Source: Casimicrobiaceae bacterium
Lineage (GTDB): Bacteria > Pseudomonadota > Gammaproteobacteria > Burkholderiales > Casimicrobiaceae
Direction of reading: 5' to 3'
Assembly: GCA_026646885.1 (NCBI GenBank)
Contig: JAPKHK010000006.1
Coordinates: forward strand, 62,001-126,000
Length of the DNA: 64,000 nt
Both the position numbers and the translations under genes were made by a program. Position 1 is the first letter of the stretch, and each line of letters opens with the position of its first letter. This document shows, piece by piece, positions 39,723 to 43,788 of this stretch. The notes under the pieces are model-generated. The model saw nothing but the letters and a program-made list of their open reading frames with translations, made no database searches and was not told the origin of the DNA.

Positions 39723-40968
39723 GCTGCGACGCATCTTCGCGCCAGGGCGCGACTTTCAGCAGCAGCAGCATGCCGGGCACGGCCAGCAAGGTGCAGAGCA
39801 GGAAGAAATTGAACCATCCCATTTGTTCGACGATCCAGCCGGTGGTGGCATTGATCAGCGTTCGGGGGATGGCCATGAAGCTCGTGAACAAAGCAAACTG
39901 CGTGGCGGTATAGGGCGGGTGGGTGGCTCGGGCGATGAAGGCCACGAACGCGGCCGTCCCCAAACCCACGCCCAGGTATTCCGCACCGATCACCAGACCT
40001 AAGTCCCAGCCGTTGGGCTGAGGCAGCGCAGCAAGCCAGCCGAAACCCAAAATGGTCACCAGCTGCACCACGCCGAACACCCACAGGGCCCGGTTGATGC
40101 CCAGTTTCAACATCCACACCCCGCCCAGCAGACCGCCCACTACGGTCGCCCAGAGGCCGACGTTTTTGGCGATCAAGCCGATGTCGGTTTTGCTGAAACC
40201 CTTCTCGAGATAAAAAGGCGTGGATAGAGCCGTGGCCATGCTGTCGCCCAGCTTGTAGAGAAAAATGAAGGCGAGGATGGTGAACGCAGCCCCCCAGCCC
40301 GAGCGCTGAATGAACTCGCGGAAAGGTTCGACCACCGCTTCGCGCAGCGTCTTGGGGCCTTCCTTGGCGAGCTGCGGTTCGCTCACCCAGAGCGTCATGG
40401 CGATGCCGGGCAACATGAACAAAGCGGTGAAGAAAAACACCGACGACCAGGGCAGATGGTCGGCGAGGATCAGCGATAGAGCGCCAGGCACTAGCCCCGC
40501 GACGCGATAGGCGTTGATGTGCAGCGCATTGCCCAGGCCCAGTTCGGCGTCAGGCAAAATCTCGCGACGAAAGGCATCGAGCGCGATGTCTTGGGTGGCG
40601 CTGAAAAATGCGACCGCGGCGGCAAGGTACGCGATGGTCCACAAATCCTGGCCAGGCGAGAAAACGCCCAGCGCGGCGATGGAAGCCAGTAGTGCGATTT
40701 GGGTGGCGAGCATCCAGCCGCGACGGCGTCCCAGCGGCAGGGCATAACGATCGATAAAAGGCGACCAGAGGAACTTCCAGGTGTAGGGTAGTTGCACCAG
40801 AGCGAAAAGACCGATGGCCTTGAGATCGATCTGTTCGGTCTTCAACCAAGCCGGTACCAGGTTGATGAGGAGATACAGCGGCAGTCCGGAGCTAAAGCCC
40901 GTAAATAGGCAAATCAACATGCGGCGGTTGAACAACGCCTCACGCAGTGTCTGGCCCCAAGCGCTCAT
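39703..40968 (-). CDS. ampG: AmpG-type MFS permease (muropeptide transporter)
   Basis: 421 residues with 12 predicted hydrophobic segments. FTGFSSGLPLYLLINLVPAWL, LPYTWKFLWSPFIDRYALPLGRRRGWM and FFSATQDIALDAFRREIL match AmpG, which imports anhydro-muropeptides for recycling. Overlaps metW (ATGA), so it is the third gene of the metX-metW operon. Related acetyl-CoA transporters share part of the fold, so substrate is inferred. Confidence 0.85.
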   Translation of the reverse strand: MSAWGQTLREALFNRRMLICLFTGFSSGLPLYLLINLVPAWLKTEQIDLKAIGLFALVQLPYTWKFLWSPFIDRYALPLGRRRGWMLATQIALLASIAALGVFSPGQDLWTIAYLAAAVAFFSATQDIALDAFRREILPDAELGLGNALHINAYRVAGLVPGALSLILADHLPWSSVFFFTALFMLPGIAMTLWVSEPQLAKEGPKTLREAVVEPFREFIQRSGWGAAFTILAFIFLYKLGDSMATALSTPFYLEKGFSKTDIGLIAKNVGLWATVVGGLLGGVWMLKLGINRALWVFGVVQLVTILGFGWLAALPQPNGWDLGLVIGAEYLGVGLGTAAFVAFIARATHPPYTATQFALFTSFMAIPRTLINATTGWIVEQMGWFNFFLLCTLLAVPGMLLLLKVAPWREDASQPKEPAA

Positions 40969-41558
40969 CGACCAAGCGCCCGGCGGATGCGATAAACGGC
41001 CAAAGTGCCCAAGCAGTTGGGCAGCAGCTTAACTTCCTGTCCGTCATGCAACACGCGCCTATCCAAAACCTCGAGTTGACGCTGGGCACAGAAATCGTCG
41101 AAGTCGTGCACGGTGCACAGGTGGATGTTCGGCGTGTCGTACCATTGGTACGGCAGATCCTTGGAAACCGGCATATGCCCGCGAAGAATTTGCCAACGGT
41201 GTTTCCAATGCCCGAAATTGGGGAAGCTGACGATGGCCTCGCGGCCCACGCGCAGCATCTCCAGTACGATCTCTTCGGTGTGGCGCATCGCCTGCAAAGT
41301 CTGCGAAAGAATCACGTAATCGAAGGATGAGTCTTCAAACCCGGAAAGGCCGGCCTCGAGGTTGCTTTGCACCACCGAAACGCCGTTCTTCACGCAAGCG
41401 AGCACCGAGGCGTCGTCGATTTCCACGCCATAACCGGCAACCTGCCGGTGCTCGCGCAAGTAGGCCAGTAAGCCGCCATCGCCGCAGCCCAAGTCCAACA
41501 CCTGCGCTTGGGGGCGAATCCATTCGGCGATCAAGGAATAATCGGGGCGGATGTTCAT
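40965..41558 (-). CDS. metW: Methionine biosynthesis protein MetW
   Basis: SAM-dependent methyltransferase-like protein of 197 residues, with [26 protein letters not shown] and [12 protein letters not shown]. MetW works with MetX in homoserine acylation in proteobacteria. Overlaps both metX and ampG by four bases. Confidence 0.96.
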
Positions 41559-42706
41559 GACGATAGCTCCGCCGCGATGCGGTCGAAATAGGCCCGCACC
41601 AGGGCGTGGTAGCGCGCGTCGTCTAATAGAAACGCATCGTGGCCGTGCGGCGCATCGATTTCGGCGTAGCTCACTTCCCGCCGATTATCGATGAGCGCCT
41701 TGACGATTTCTCGCGAGCGCTGCGGAGAAAAGCGCCAGTCGGTAGTGAAAGAAACCACCAGAAAGCGCGCTCGCGCAGGTTCCAGCGCGCGCCGCAAATC
41801 GCCGCCAGAAGCCGCGGCGGGGTCGAAGTAGTCCAGCGCTTTGGTGATGCGCAAGTAGGTATTGGCATCGAAGTATTCGGAAAACTTGTCACCTTGATAG
41901 CGCAAATAAGATTCGATTTGGAACTCCGGCTCGAAGCTGTAGCGCAGGCCGTTGCGCAACTGGCGCCCGAATTTTTCGGCCATCTGATCATCGGAAAGAT
42001 AGGTGATGTGGCCGATCATGCGTGCGACGCGCAAGCCGCGGCGGGGCTTGACGGCGGCCTCATAAAAGTGCCCGGCATGAAACTCCGGGTCGGTCATAAT
42101 GGCGGCGCGCGCCACCTCATTGAAGGCGATGTTCTGGGCCGACAAATTGGGTGCCGCGGCGATCACCAGCGCATGCGCCACGCGCTGCGGGTGACGGATG
42201 GTCCAGGCCAGCGCTTGCATGCCCCCGAGGCTCCCGCCCATCACCGCGGCAAAACTGGCGATGCCCAGATGATCGGCGACGCGCACCTGGGCATCGACCC
42301 AGTCTTCCACCGTCACCACGGGAAAGTCCGCGCCGTAGGGCTTGCCGGTCGCCGGGTCGAGATCCATCGGTCCGGTGGAGCCAAAACACGAGCCGAGGTT
42401 GTTCACCCCGACGACGAAAAAGCGACTCGTATCCACCGGCTTGCCGGGCCCTACCATGTTGTCCCACCAACCCTCGCTGTTGGCTTGATCGGCATACACC
42501 CCGGCGACGTGATGCGAGGCGTTGAGCGCATGGCAAATCAGAACCGCGTTGTCGCGCGCGGCATTCAGTTCGCCATAGGTCTCGATCATCAGATGATAAG
42601 GTCCGAAGGCGCGCCCGCAGGCGAGCGGCAGCGGCTCTGCAAATTCGACGCGCTGCGGCGTGACGACACCGACAGCCCCGTTCGGAAAGGGTGGAGCAGG
42701 GGGCAT
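41555..42706 (-). CDS. metX: Homoserine O-acyltransferase MetX
   Basis: First committed step of methionine synthesis. 383 residues, alpha/beta hydrolase fold: [14 protein letters not shown], nucleophile in [12 protein letters not shown], late Asp in FTTDWRFSP and His in [11 protein letters not shown]. Start ATG 42706 follows a GGGATC stretch just after the leader terminator; the longer frame would read through that terminator. In MetW-linked forms the acyl donor is often succinyl-CoA, which the sequence alone cannot settle. Confidence 0.97.
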
Positions 42707-42718
42707 GGAGATCCCAAC

Positions 42719-42752
42719 AAAAAAAGCCCGACCAGCTTGGCTAATCGGGCTT
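42719..42752 (-). terminator. Intrinsic terminator in the metX leader
   Basis: On the minus strand: AAGCCCGA, a 13-nt loop TTAGCCAAGCTGG, TCGGGCTT and a run of T, ending 13 nt before the metX ATG. Its location in a leader rather than after a gene implies conditional attenuation. Confidence 0.9.
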
Positions 42753-42753
42753 C

Positions 42754-42831
42754 TCACCTCGCTTTAGCAGTTTTTGCGGCGACCCGATCTTCGGCCGCTG
42801 CGCGCCCGCAAGCTGATCTCAAATCGGCGCC
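42754..42831 (-). promoter_or_regulatory. SAM-II-type riboswitch upstream of metX
   Basis: Minus-strand leader RNA with the SAM-II layout. P1: GCGCC (42826-42830) with GGCGC (42802-42806). Loop 1 carries GATTTG and then TCAGCTTGC (42808-42816), which pairs 8 of 9 with GCGAGGTGA (42754-42762) after the conserved GCTAAAG (42762-42768), forming the pseudoknot P2. Between P1 and GCTAAAG an extra hairpin is possible (GCGGC 42794-42798 with GCCGC 42776-42780), longer than usual. Gene context (metX), promoter and terminator all agree with SAM repression of methionine synthesis. Confidence 0.82.
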
Positions 42832-42836
42832 CCGCA

Positions 42837-42865
42837 AAGTTACCGGGAGGGGGGGCGCTTGTCAA
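42837..42865 (-). promoter_or_regulatory. metX operon promoter
   Basis: Minus strand: perfect TTGACA (42860-42865), 17-nt spacer with a C7 tract, TAACTT (42837-42842). Transcription would begin near 42830, exactly where the riboswitch P1 starts. Confidence 0.75.
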
Positions 42866-42923: not shown

Positions 42924-42952
42924 TTGACGCCTTGCAGAACGGCGCATAGACT
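42924..42952 (+). promoter_or_regulatory. Putative promoter for the IPTL-CTERM gene
   Basis: TTGACG (42924-42929), 17-nt spacer, TAGACT (42947-42952); about 77 nt of 5' leader to the ATG. With the metX leader this explains the 329-nt gap; I see nothing else in it. Confidence 0.55.
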
Positions 42953-43035: not shown

Positions 43036-43788
43036 ATGCGTGCTAAGACCTATTGGTTACTGCTGGTTGTCGTGCTGATTTCCGCTGGGGCAAAAGTGGC
43101 GCAAGCGCAGTCGAGCTGGGCCACCTTCGCTTATAGCATTGCTTCCAGTTGTGGCGGCAGTTGTGACACCCAACTCCAGCTCGCCACCAACACGGGCCCG
43201 GTTACCCTGACCGCCACCAACCGCGGTTGGGTCAGTTCCACGGGTCTCAATAACGGCGCCAGCGCAACCAACAATTACATCGCCGGTTTCTGCAGCAGCG
43301 CCGACACCTGTAGCGGCGGAAACTCGCTCTGGCGAAACTGGTTTGCGTTTGCCTTGCCGGTGGGGGGGTTCTCGACGATTTCATCCGCCACTCTGCTGCT
43401 CGATGTGCCGGCGCCGGCGGCTCCAGCTCAAGGGGTCTATAACTTTGGCGGTACGCTCACCTATACCGTGTGGGACGTGAGCAGCGCACCCGCCACGTTT
43501 ACCGGCAGCGCCGCCGGGCTCGCCGAATATAACGATCTGGGGACGGGGATTGTCTACGGTTCGCGCGTTTACCTGCGCAGCGATGAGGGAACGGTGAGCT
43601 CGGTGCCGCTCAATGCCGCGGCGGTCGCTTGGCTCAATACGCAGATCGGCCAGACGGTCGTGCTGGGCGGTGCTGCTGACCTTCTCCCCTATGGCGCCAT
43701 CCCGACGCTTTCGCCTGCGGGCCTTGCATTGCTTGCTTTGCTGGTGCTGATTGCCGCGAATCTGACGCGACGCCGCAGAAAAGCGTGA
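43036..43788 (+). CDS. IPTL-CTERM sorted surface protein, function unknown
   Basis: 250 residues. Signal peptide 1-24 (ending KVAQAQ). The body is Ser/Thr/Gly/Ala-rich, with four cysteines in two near pairs (SSCGGSCD and FCSSADTC) and beta-rich stretches. The C-terminus IPTLSPAGLALLALLVLIAANLTRRRRKA is the tripartite IPTL-CTERM signal: IPTL motif, membrane helix, basic tail. Such tails direct proteins to an exosortase-like surface-sorting system; no sorting enzyme is in the window. Strong GAGGAG site upstream. The body resembles no family I can name. Confidence 0.88.
   Translation: MRAKTYWLLLVVVLISAGAKVAQAQSSWATFAYSIASSCGGSCDTQLQLATNTGPVTLTATNRGWVSSTGLNNGASATNNYIAGFCSSADTCSGGNSLWRNWFAFALPVGGFSTISSATLLLDVPAPAAPAQGVYNFGGTLTYTVWDVSSAPATFTGSAAGLAEYNDLGTGIVYGSRVYLRSDEGTVSSVPLNAAAVAWLNTQIGQTVVLGGAADLLPYGAIPTLSPAGLALLALLVLIAANLTRRRRKA

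Follow-up and report, generated by a model that had tools for sequence, protein, structure and literature searches.

The window (the whole stretch of 64,000 nucleotides that was analysed) carries on its minus strand, before metX, a metX–metW leader with a SAM-II-like aptamer and a terminator, which raises the question of what part of the RNA would hold that terminator open without SAM. A sequence-only reading had assigned this role to an insert in the third loop of the aptamer; its letters and coordinates proved correct. The parts of the leader and the genes behind it are as follows.

42837 to 42865, minus strand: promoter-like TTGACA, 17-nt spacer, TAACTT (sequence; 9 of 12 consensus matches)
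42826 to 42830, minus strand: 5′ strand of P1, GCGCC (pattern match at 42802-42830; match of model R1 at 42757-42830, 51.9 bits)
42808 to 42825, minus strand: loop 1, GATTTGAGATCAGCTTGC, 18 nt, with the conserved GATTT and the P2-5′ strand (sequence, alignment)
42809 to 42818, minus strand: GATCAGCTTG, candidate antiterminator strand overlapping the P2-5′ strand (10 contiguous pairs with 42730-42739)
42802 to 42806, minus strand: 3′ strand of P1, GGCGC (sequence, pattern match)
42769 to 42801, minus strand: loop 3, 33 nt, with the inserted hairpin (length, fold)
42782 to 42789, minus strand: GATCGGGT, antiterminator strand of the sequence-only reading (8 pairs with 42743-42750; little conservation)
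42761 to 42768, minus strand: GCTAAAGC, P2-3′ strand of the aptamer (sequence; P2 role by homology with SAM-II)
42724 to 42752, minus strand: terminator hairpin AAGCCCGATTAGC-CAA-GCTGGTCGGGCTT, 13 pairs (−20.3 kcal/mol)
42730 to 42739, minus strand: CAAGCTGGTC, terminator loop and inner right arm, candidate partner of the P2-5′ strand (pairing, folding)
42719 to 42725, minus strand: seven-T run ending the terminator, two positions shared with the stem (sequence)
41555 to 42706, minus strand: metX, ATG at 42706 (NCBIfam NF047916 MetX, homoserine O-succinyltransferase, 663.4 bits, cut-off 560)
40965 to 41558, minus strand: metW, the next gene (NCBIfam TIGR02081, 277.1 bits, cut-off 189.5)

The promoter-like site ends 6 nt 5′ of P1, and sites with at least 8 of 12 matches lie upstream in 105 of 170 leaders compared with 10 in shuffles; a stricter promoter scan did not list TTGACA-17-TAACTT, whose second hexamer has three of six matches. 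Between the aptamer and the start codon lie a GC-rich hairpin and a T run, the arrangement of a Rho-independent terminator switch, and 17 bases separate the end of the hairpin from the metX ATG. The long open reading frame opens with a GTG farther upstream, within the leader; we place the start of metX at the ATG (42706), since, counted from there, the match to the MetX profile begins at residue 12. With metX–metW downstream, the leader has a methionine/SAM target gene of the SAM-II kind. On the plus strand, a divergent promoter-like TTGACG-17-TAGACT (window 42924-42952) stands before an open reading frame at 43036-43788 (plus), the C-terminus of which, IPTLSPAGLALLALLVL...RRRRKA, resembles a protein-sorting signal.

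A SAM-II-type aptamer precedes metX

At gathering thresholds, Rfam found no family in the window. At a relaxed threshold, SAM_alpha (RF00521) reached 15 bits against a cut-off of 36 on the P1 hairpin only, aligning positions 11-41 of 79; the inserted loop would interrupt the model there. We built a covariance model, R1, from 29 leaders of other genera, leaving out the genus of the window. R1 found the window element at 51.9 bits (E = 2e-14) across all 53 model positions, and nothing else in the window scored above 10.2 bits with it. The conserved P1 and loop sequences of SAM-II (GATTT, CTTGC, GCTAAA) are present, as judged by R1 and the invariant columns, and GCTAAA is invariant in the 29-row alignment A1. 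The same motif was evident in most of 80 metX loci from named genomes; the first form of the motif was absent from 10 of the 80, some of which were recovered by later finders. The pattern GCGCYGATTTG-N3-25-TTGCGGGCGC occurred in 44 of 64 genomes of the family and 62 of 120 genomes of the order, with no reversed control pattern among the matches listed for these family and order genomes.

Across 120 genomes of the order, SAM_alpha itself matched at E ≤0.001 in 52 and exceeded its cut-off in 20; the 14 control genomes gave none. In a set of 20 sources, two sibling loci passed the cut-off, L052 (39.2) and L113 (39.0). We file the window element as SAM-II for its homology to copies above the cut-off and not for its own Rfam score; a new riboswitch class was ruled out, as other copies exceed the SAM_alpha cut-off. 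Taken by its sequence, the element is a SAM-II riboswitch with a transcription terminator and a common loop insert.

P1 reads GCGCC/GGCGC in 220 of 236 leaders; the other pairs are TCGCC/GGCGA (4), GGGGG/CCCCC (3), ACGCC/GGCGT (2), GCGTC/GACGC (1) and others, a selected sample, since the leader finder demanded a paired P1. The P2 pairing of GCTTGC with GCTAAAGC can be drawn. Simple pair counts across leaders gave no P2 covariation: loop-1 positions −1 to −4, set against the four bases that follow GCTAAA, showed no clear excess, and the core is invariant. The P2 assignment leans on the general P2 layout of SAM-II crystal structures, which we take to apply here.

The likeness to SAM-II (RF00521) comprises the P1 hairpin, GATTT in loop 1, CTTGC, GCTAAA, methionine genes and, as often in that class, a terminator; the window differs in its 33-nt third loop with a hairpin. 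In the accessible text of Corbino 2005 (PMC1273637), many SAM-II elements have terminators and promoters just before P1, and Bordetella bronchiseptica is listed; SAM-II elements with terminators also appear in beta-proteobacteria in that of Barrick and Breaker 2007 (PMC2258182). A beta-proteobacterial metXZ element resembles the leader as well: in the accessible text of Leyn 2014 (PMC4239095), which called it novel, it lies upstream of metXW or metZ, forms a pseudoknot and an alternative fold and is followed by a terminator, with a speculative antiterminator in GC-rich regions 3 and 4. The same text places SAM_alpha only in Rhizobiales and Rhodobacterales, whereas here SAM_alpha scored above its cut-off in 20 of the 120 genomes from the window's order. 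The metXZ element is most likely the same RNA as the window element. The metZ SAM-II of Sinorhizobium meliloti differs from the window in its alpha-proteobacterial host; according to the accessible text of PMC9373788, its control by a terminator is predicted and a terminated RNA of ∼100 nt rises at high SAM. For the metA terminator of S. meliloti, the accessible text of Scheuer 2022, which treats metZ and metA, describes no SAM-II-driven antiterminator as predictable.

RF02424 matches the strand opposite the aptamer

The DNA of the window element is also covered by RF02424 (sRNA Bp2_287), which models the opposite strand and scored 24.9 bits (E = 0.0013) on the plus strand (42721-42862), below its cut-off of 70. 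An antisense small RNA transcribed from the plus strand would account for this match, and the accessible text of Khoo (PMC3521395) reports that Bp2_Cand287 was detected by RT-PCR in Burkholderia pseudomallei and calls it cis-acting. However, the window score is well under the cut-off, which 1 of the 19 RF02424 matches in the 120 genomes exceeded, and all 19 (L214-L219, L280 and L281 among them) lie on the strand opposite a SAM-II aptamer, 16 by coordinates and L214, L280 and L281 by sequence or model match. Moreover, promoter-like sites stand just 5′ of P1 on the metX strand, and it is the metX strand that the T-run hairpin fits. On this comparison RF02424 is, in 19 of 19 matches, the reverse complement of the SAM-II aptamer and terminator, modeled on the wrong strand, and these matches led us to reject the antisense reading as extremely improbable. 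The annotation of Burkholderiales would be cleaner if RF02424 and, most likely, the metXZ element were merged into SAM-II.

The third-loop insert is a common add-on

The stretch between P1 and GCTAAA, put at about 33 nt by the sequence-only reading, is 33 nt long (42769-42801, minus strand) and folds as a hairpin at −14.6 kcal/mol. Among 236 distinct leaders, which are the output of a motif-plus-P1 finder and leave out metX leaders lacking the motif, the third loop measures 12–13 nt in 146 and at least 20 nt in 82. All but one of these 82 long loops (81/82) fold at ≤−5 kcal/mol, with a mean z of −2.5 against mononucleotide shuffles, and long loops are commoner without a terminator (44 of 65 leaders) than with one (38 of 171). 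Because such folds are widespread and commoner without a terminator, we regard the third-loop hairpin as real, common and not tied to termination; it is an optional insert. The proposal of a transcriptional SAM-II switch with an inserted loop hairpin stands, since the leader combines a SAM-II-type aptamer with an intrinsic terminator and the insert and lies before metX, and these features together make a transcriptional OFF switch most likely.

The insert had further been proposed as the antiterminator, with GATCGGGT (42789..42782) keeping GCCCGATT (42750..42743) in the left arm of the terminator open without SAM. The pairing over 8 positions (6 Watson-Crick, 2 G-U) is possible and is kept in both members of the genus; as the main switch it did not hold up, having a chance-level energy and little conservation. 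Among 21 leaders with a CCCGAT left arm, loop–left-arm pairing extends over 8 bp in the window and 7 bp in the sister species (L082), but over at most 6 bp in the other 19 (6 in L030 and L144). Dinucleotide shuffling of the loop (3000 shuffles) gave a helix of at least 8 with the left arm in 2.2%, a point in favour of the insert, and with any terminator part in 13%. In duplex energy, loop 3 and the terminator (row L081) match no better than shuffled sequences do (p = 0.26 and 0.31). When 70 length-matched intrinsic terminators were drawn from other places in the loci analysed, 74% of them matched the window loop equally well or better. In addition, GGGT of GATCGGGT is used in the right arm of the best fold of the isolated insert, so that GATCGGGT would not be free while the insert hairpin holds.

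The relatives showed no excess of complementarity between loop 3 and the terminator. Own and foreign SAM-II terminators did not differ for loop 3 (p = 0.68 in 75 leaders, 0.95 in 16 long loops), the larger set gave p = 0.35 (110 leaders) and 0.45 (24 long loops), the energy was −4.99 kcal/mol with its own terminator and −5.27 with 70 length-matched other terminators, and loop 3 passed both shuffles in 1 of 87 leaders. In the folding model, a ban on all loop–terminator pairs makes the antiterminator of the window 1.2 kcal/mol less stable and leaves that of the sister species unchanged (0.0). Although the helix lies nested inside the best antiterminator fold, with P1 as its only companion it falls behind P1 plus a partial terminator by 1.3 kcal/mol at 3′ end 105 and behind P1 plus terminator by 13 kcal/mol at full length; it also offers no explanation for the 146 leaders (of 236) whose loop is 12–13 nt long. 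Shuffles, foreign terminators, relatives and constrained folding thus demote the loop-3 antiterminator from main switch to possible helper. The GATCGGGT:GCCCGATT pairing may at most be a lineage-specific helper in the window's genus, and the insert as the antiterminator seems to us quite improbable.

The P2-5′ strand is a better antiterminator candidate

A longer helix is available to the 5′ strand of P2. GATCAGCTTG (42818-42809) can pair with CAAGCTGGTC (42739-42730) over 10 contiguous bp, 9 Watson-Crick and 1 G-U. The duplex of the P2-5′ strand with the terminator has an energy of −16.9 kcal/mol in the window, lower than in two kinds of shuffle (p = 0.005 and 0.035). For the 10-bp helix of the window by itself, shuffling gave 4.0–5.8%, and 1 of 70 length-matched other terminators paired as well with the window's P2-5′ strand. 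The right arm GCTGGTC can pair with the left arm GATTAGC or with GATCAGC of the aptamer, and the latter pairing continues across the CAA loop and so reaches 10 bp. Because GATCAGCTTG overlaps the P2-5′ strand, GATCAGCTTG:CAAGCTGGTC would exclude the SAM-bound pseudoknot.

In the growing RNA, modeled as a 113-nt segment, the antiterminator fold is the unconstrained minimum at 3′ ends 102 and 104-107 and lies 0.2 kcal/mol off it at 103; the terminator overtakes it from 3′ end 109. At full length, in a folding model without SAM, with most folds and duplexes pseudoknot-free and P2 absent from the antiterminator comparison, the terminator fold reaches −47.7 kcal/mol with P1 and −51.1 kcal/mol unconstrained, and the antiterminator −42.1 kcal/mol. 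Since the full-length RNA favours the terminator fold, switching has to be kinetic.

In the window's antiterminator fold of lowest energy, GATCGGGT:GCCCGATT and GATCAGCTTG:CAAGCTGGTC occur together, nested. The two helices could thus act jointly as a reinforced antiterminator, the P2-5′ strand taking the right arm and the insert the left, and the window's loop-1 helix of 10 bp, compared with 12–13 bp in L084, L085, L143 and L144, could favour a second helix. We consider such joint action unlikely, however, as the loop-3–terminator pairs are worth only the 1.2 kcal/mol given above in the window and 0.0 in the sister species. Another candidate, after the idea of regions 3 and 4 in Leyn 2014, is that P1-3′/GCGGGC pairs with the left arm GCCCG and so opens the terminator. 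GGGC:GCCC is possible, and the left arm also contributes its CCC to the best duplex formed by the P2-5′ segment; yet by eye this pairing has four contiguous pairs and the 10-bp helix with the loop and right arm is longer, and we judge it very improbable. The on-state helix probably uses the P2-5′ strand rather than the insert.

Terminators of relatives tend to be complementary to one or the other P2 strand

Both shuffles were passed by the P2-5′ strand in 27 and by the P2-3′ strand in 10 of 87 leaders (from 91 terminator leaders, after offset and length limits, redundancy retained). For both P2 strands, own exceeded foreign SAM-II terminators, with 0 of 5000 permutations as extreme in 75 leaders (of 113, <80% terminator identity) and 0 of 10000 in the larger set; three control stretches in the same comparison gave p = 0.50, 0.83 and 0.52. 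The largest set held 110 of 121 leaders (24–42 nt), the 121 being the non-redundant ones of 171 terminator leaders after energy and offset limits. Here the energy of the P2-5′ strand was −13.36 kcal/mol with its own terminator versus −11.79 kcal/mol with 70 length-matched other terminators (p = 5e-4), and that of the P2-3′ strand −11.11 versus −8.79 kcal/mol (p = 1e-10). The 70 came from the first 200 non-redundant of 539 other terminators found, lengths being matched and duplex energies capped at zero. Their GC content was 0.72 (24–42 nt), and 0.67 in all 200, versus 0.62 in the SAM-II terminators, so that the comparison is biased against a role of the P2 strands, for both strands. The window leader was merged with L002 in the reduced sets and was tested separately against the other terminators.

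When each distinct 6-nt loop-1 tail was represented by a single leader, the P2-3′ strand gave p = 0.002 (n = 26) and 0.001 (n = 34), and the P2-5′ strand p = 0.13 (n = 26) and 0.097 (n = 34); the count of paired variable loop-1 positions gave p = 0.14. Relatedness may inflate the larger P2-5′ tests, because their signal drops to p ∼0.1 under this control. Terminators in the relatives are therefore enriched in complementarity to one or the other P2 strand, and under the strictest control this is significant for the 3′ strand and suggestive for the 5′ strand. At a best-tenth (10%) threshold, the 110 leaders divide into 24 of the 5′ kind, 32 of the 3′ kind, 9 of both and 45 of neither, with ∼11 leaders per kind expected by chance. 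Among the same-arm leaders, 10 of 21 have a loop-1 helix of at least 8 bp, and up to 13 bp, with the terminator loop and right arm (L002, L030, L081, L082, L084, L085, L119, L143, L144 and L216); in some leaders, L119 for one, the antiterminator is not favoured even at its helix end (−20.3 vs −25.5).

A likely mechanism of control

We think it likely that the leader is a SAM-II riboswitch acting by transcription termination, with the P2-5′ strand as its antiterminator. RNA polymerase would start just before P1. With SAM bound, GCTTGC of loop 1 and GCTAAAGC would form the P2 pseudoknot, the terminator would fold and metX–metW would be off. Without SAM, GATCAGCTTG would capture the emerging terminator loop and inner right arm, CAAGCTGGTC, the terminator could not close and read-through would follow. 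GATTAGC of the terminator left arm and GATCAGC of the aptamer would be rivals for one right arm; the third-loop hairpin would be optional, its left-arm pairing at most a helper in the window's genus. Beside the observed sequence parts, homology and complementarity with its comparative statistics, we infer SAM binding, the P2 pseudoknot in the window RNA, the two states and the direction of control.

SAM-II is a model pseudoknot riboswitch, in the accessible literature studied mostly as a translational switch and with little experimental support for terminator control. The window adds a compact transcriptional example, in which the proposed competitor helix is specific and can be tested. Among the open-access papers searched, none described a P2-strand antiterminator in SAM-II, which is weak evidence of absence, as subscription papers and supplements lay outside this scope.

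Strand use in other lineages

In leaders of the Comamonadaceae type, GCTAAAGAC pairs with terminator loops, for example GTTTTTAGC (L065, L070, L078). A terminator-like hairpin is lacking in 65 leaders; in 31 of these the P2-3′ strand has a helix of at least 8 bp with downstream sequence, versus 5 in mononucleotide shuffles; TTTAGCCGC accounts for 22 of the 31, few independent events because many of the 22 are close relatives. In 29 leaders, a TTTAGC-like element can also pair over at least 5 bp with the next 50 nt, the part that holds the Shine-Dalgarno sequence, a count without a control. The terminator-less Burkholderia leaders, judged from these pairings, suggest a translational version of the switch.

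It is about an even call whether the expression platforms of beta-proteobacterial SAM-II compete for one P2 strand, with the strand, 5′ or 3′, swapped by lineage in an interchangeable wiring. Under this joint reading, the 5′ strand would pair with the terminator loop and right arm in the window and Cupriavidus, and the 3′ strand with the terminator in Variovorax, Vandammella and Simplicispira and with an anti-Shine-Dalgarno, TTTAGCCGCC, in Burkholderia and relatives. If true, it would show one aptamer rewired in evolution. As a separate observation, L010, L013, L016, L021, L023 and other Burkholderia and Undibacterium loci have no terminator-like hairpin, and TTTAGCCGC or TTTTAGCC downstream can pair there with the P2-3′ strand, a sign of possible translational control.

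Other SAM-II copies in the genome and the order

The genome of the window holds four SAM-II copies: the metX leader and those on C12, C34 and C3. The C12 copy (L116/L182, G000:C12:194172-194225, minus strand) scores 31.8 bits with SAM_alpha, has a terminator and precedes a threonine ammonia-lyase-like gene (fragment match), an unusual SAM-II target; the C34 copy precedes a gene of the cystathionine gamma-synthase family (fragment match). The C3 copy (L181, G000:C3:59301-59359, minus strand; 24.1 bits, E = 4e-4) has the P1 GGGGG/CCCCC and AGGAG directly after GCTAAA, followed by an 86-aa protein without a Pfam match, and is probably a translational switch on that gene.

Tandem SAM-II elements with mixed platforms number 44 cases in the accessible text of PMC9481103. 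Here, at least two SAM-II matches lie close together at each of the loci L113, L114, L169, L177, L195-L199 and L280. At L114 and L177, the first copy has a terminator and the second is directly followed by GAGGAG. The genes downstream of such tandems encode an HD-domain protein (L113), an AAA ATPase (L114) and a protein of ∼110 aa without a Pfam match (L195), none of them an obvious SAM gene. Loop 1 carries hairpin-like insertions between GATTTG and CAGCTTGC at L109, L117, L118 and L166.
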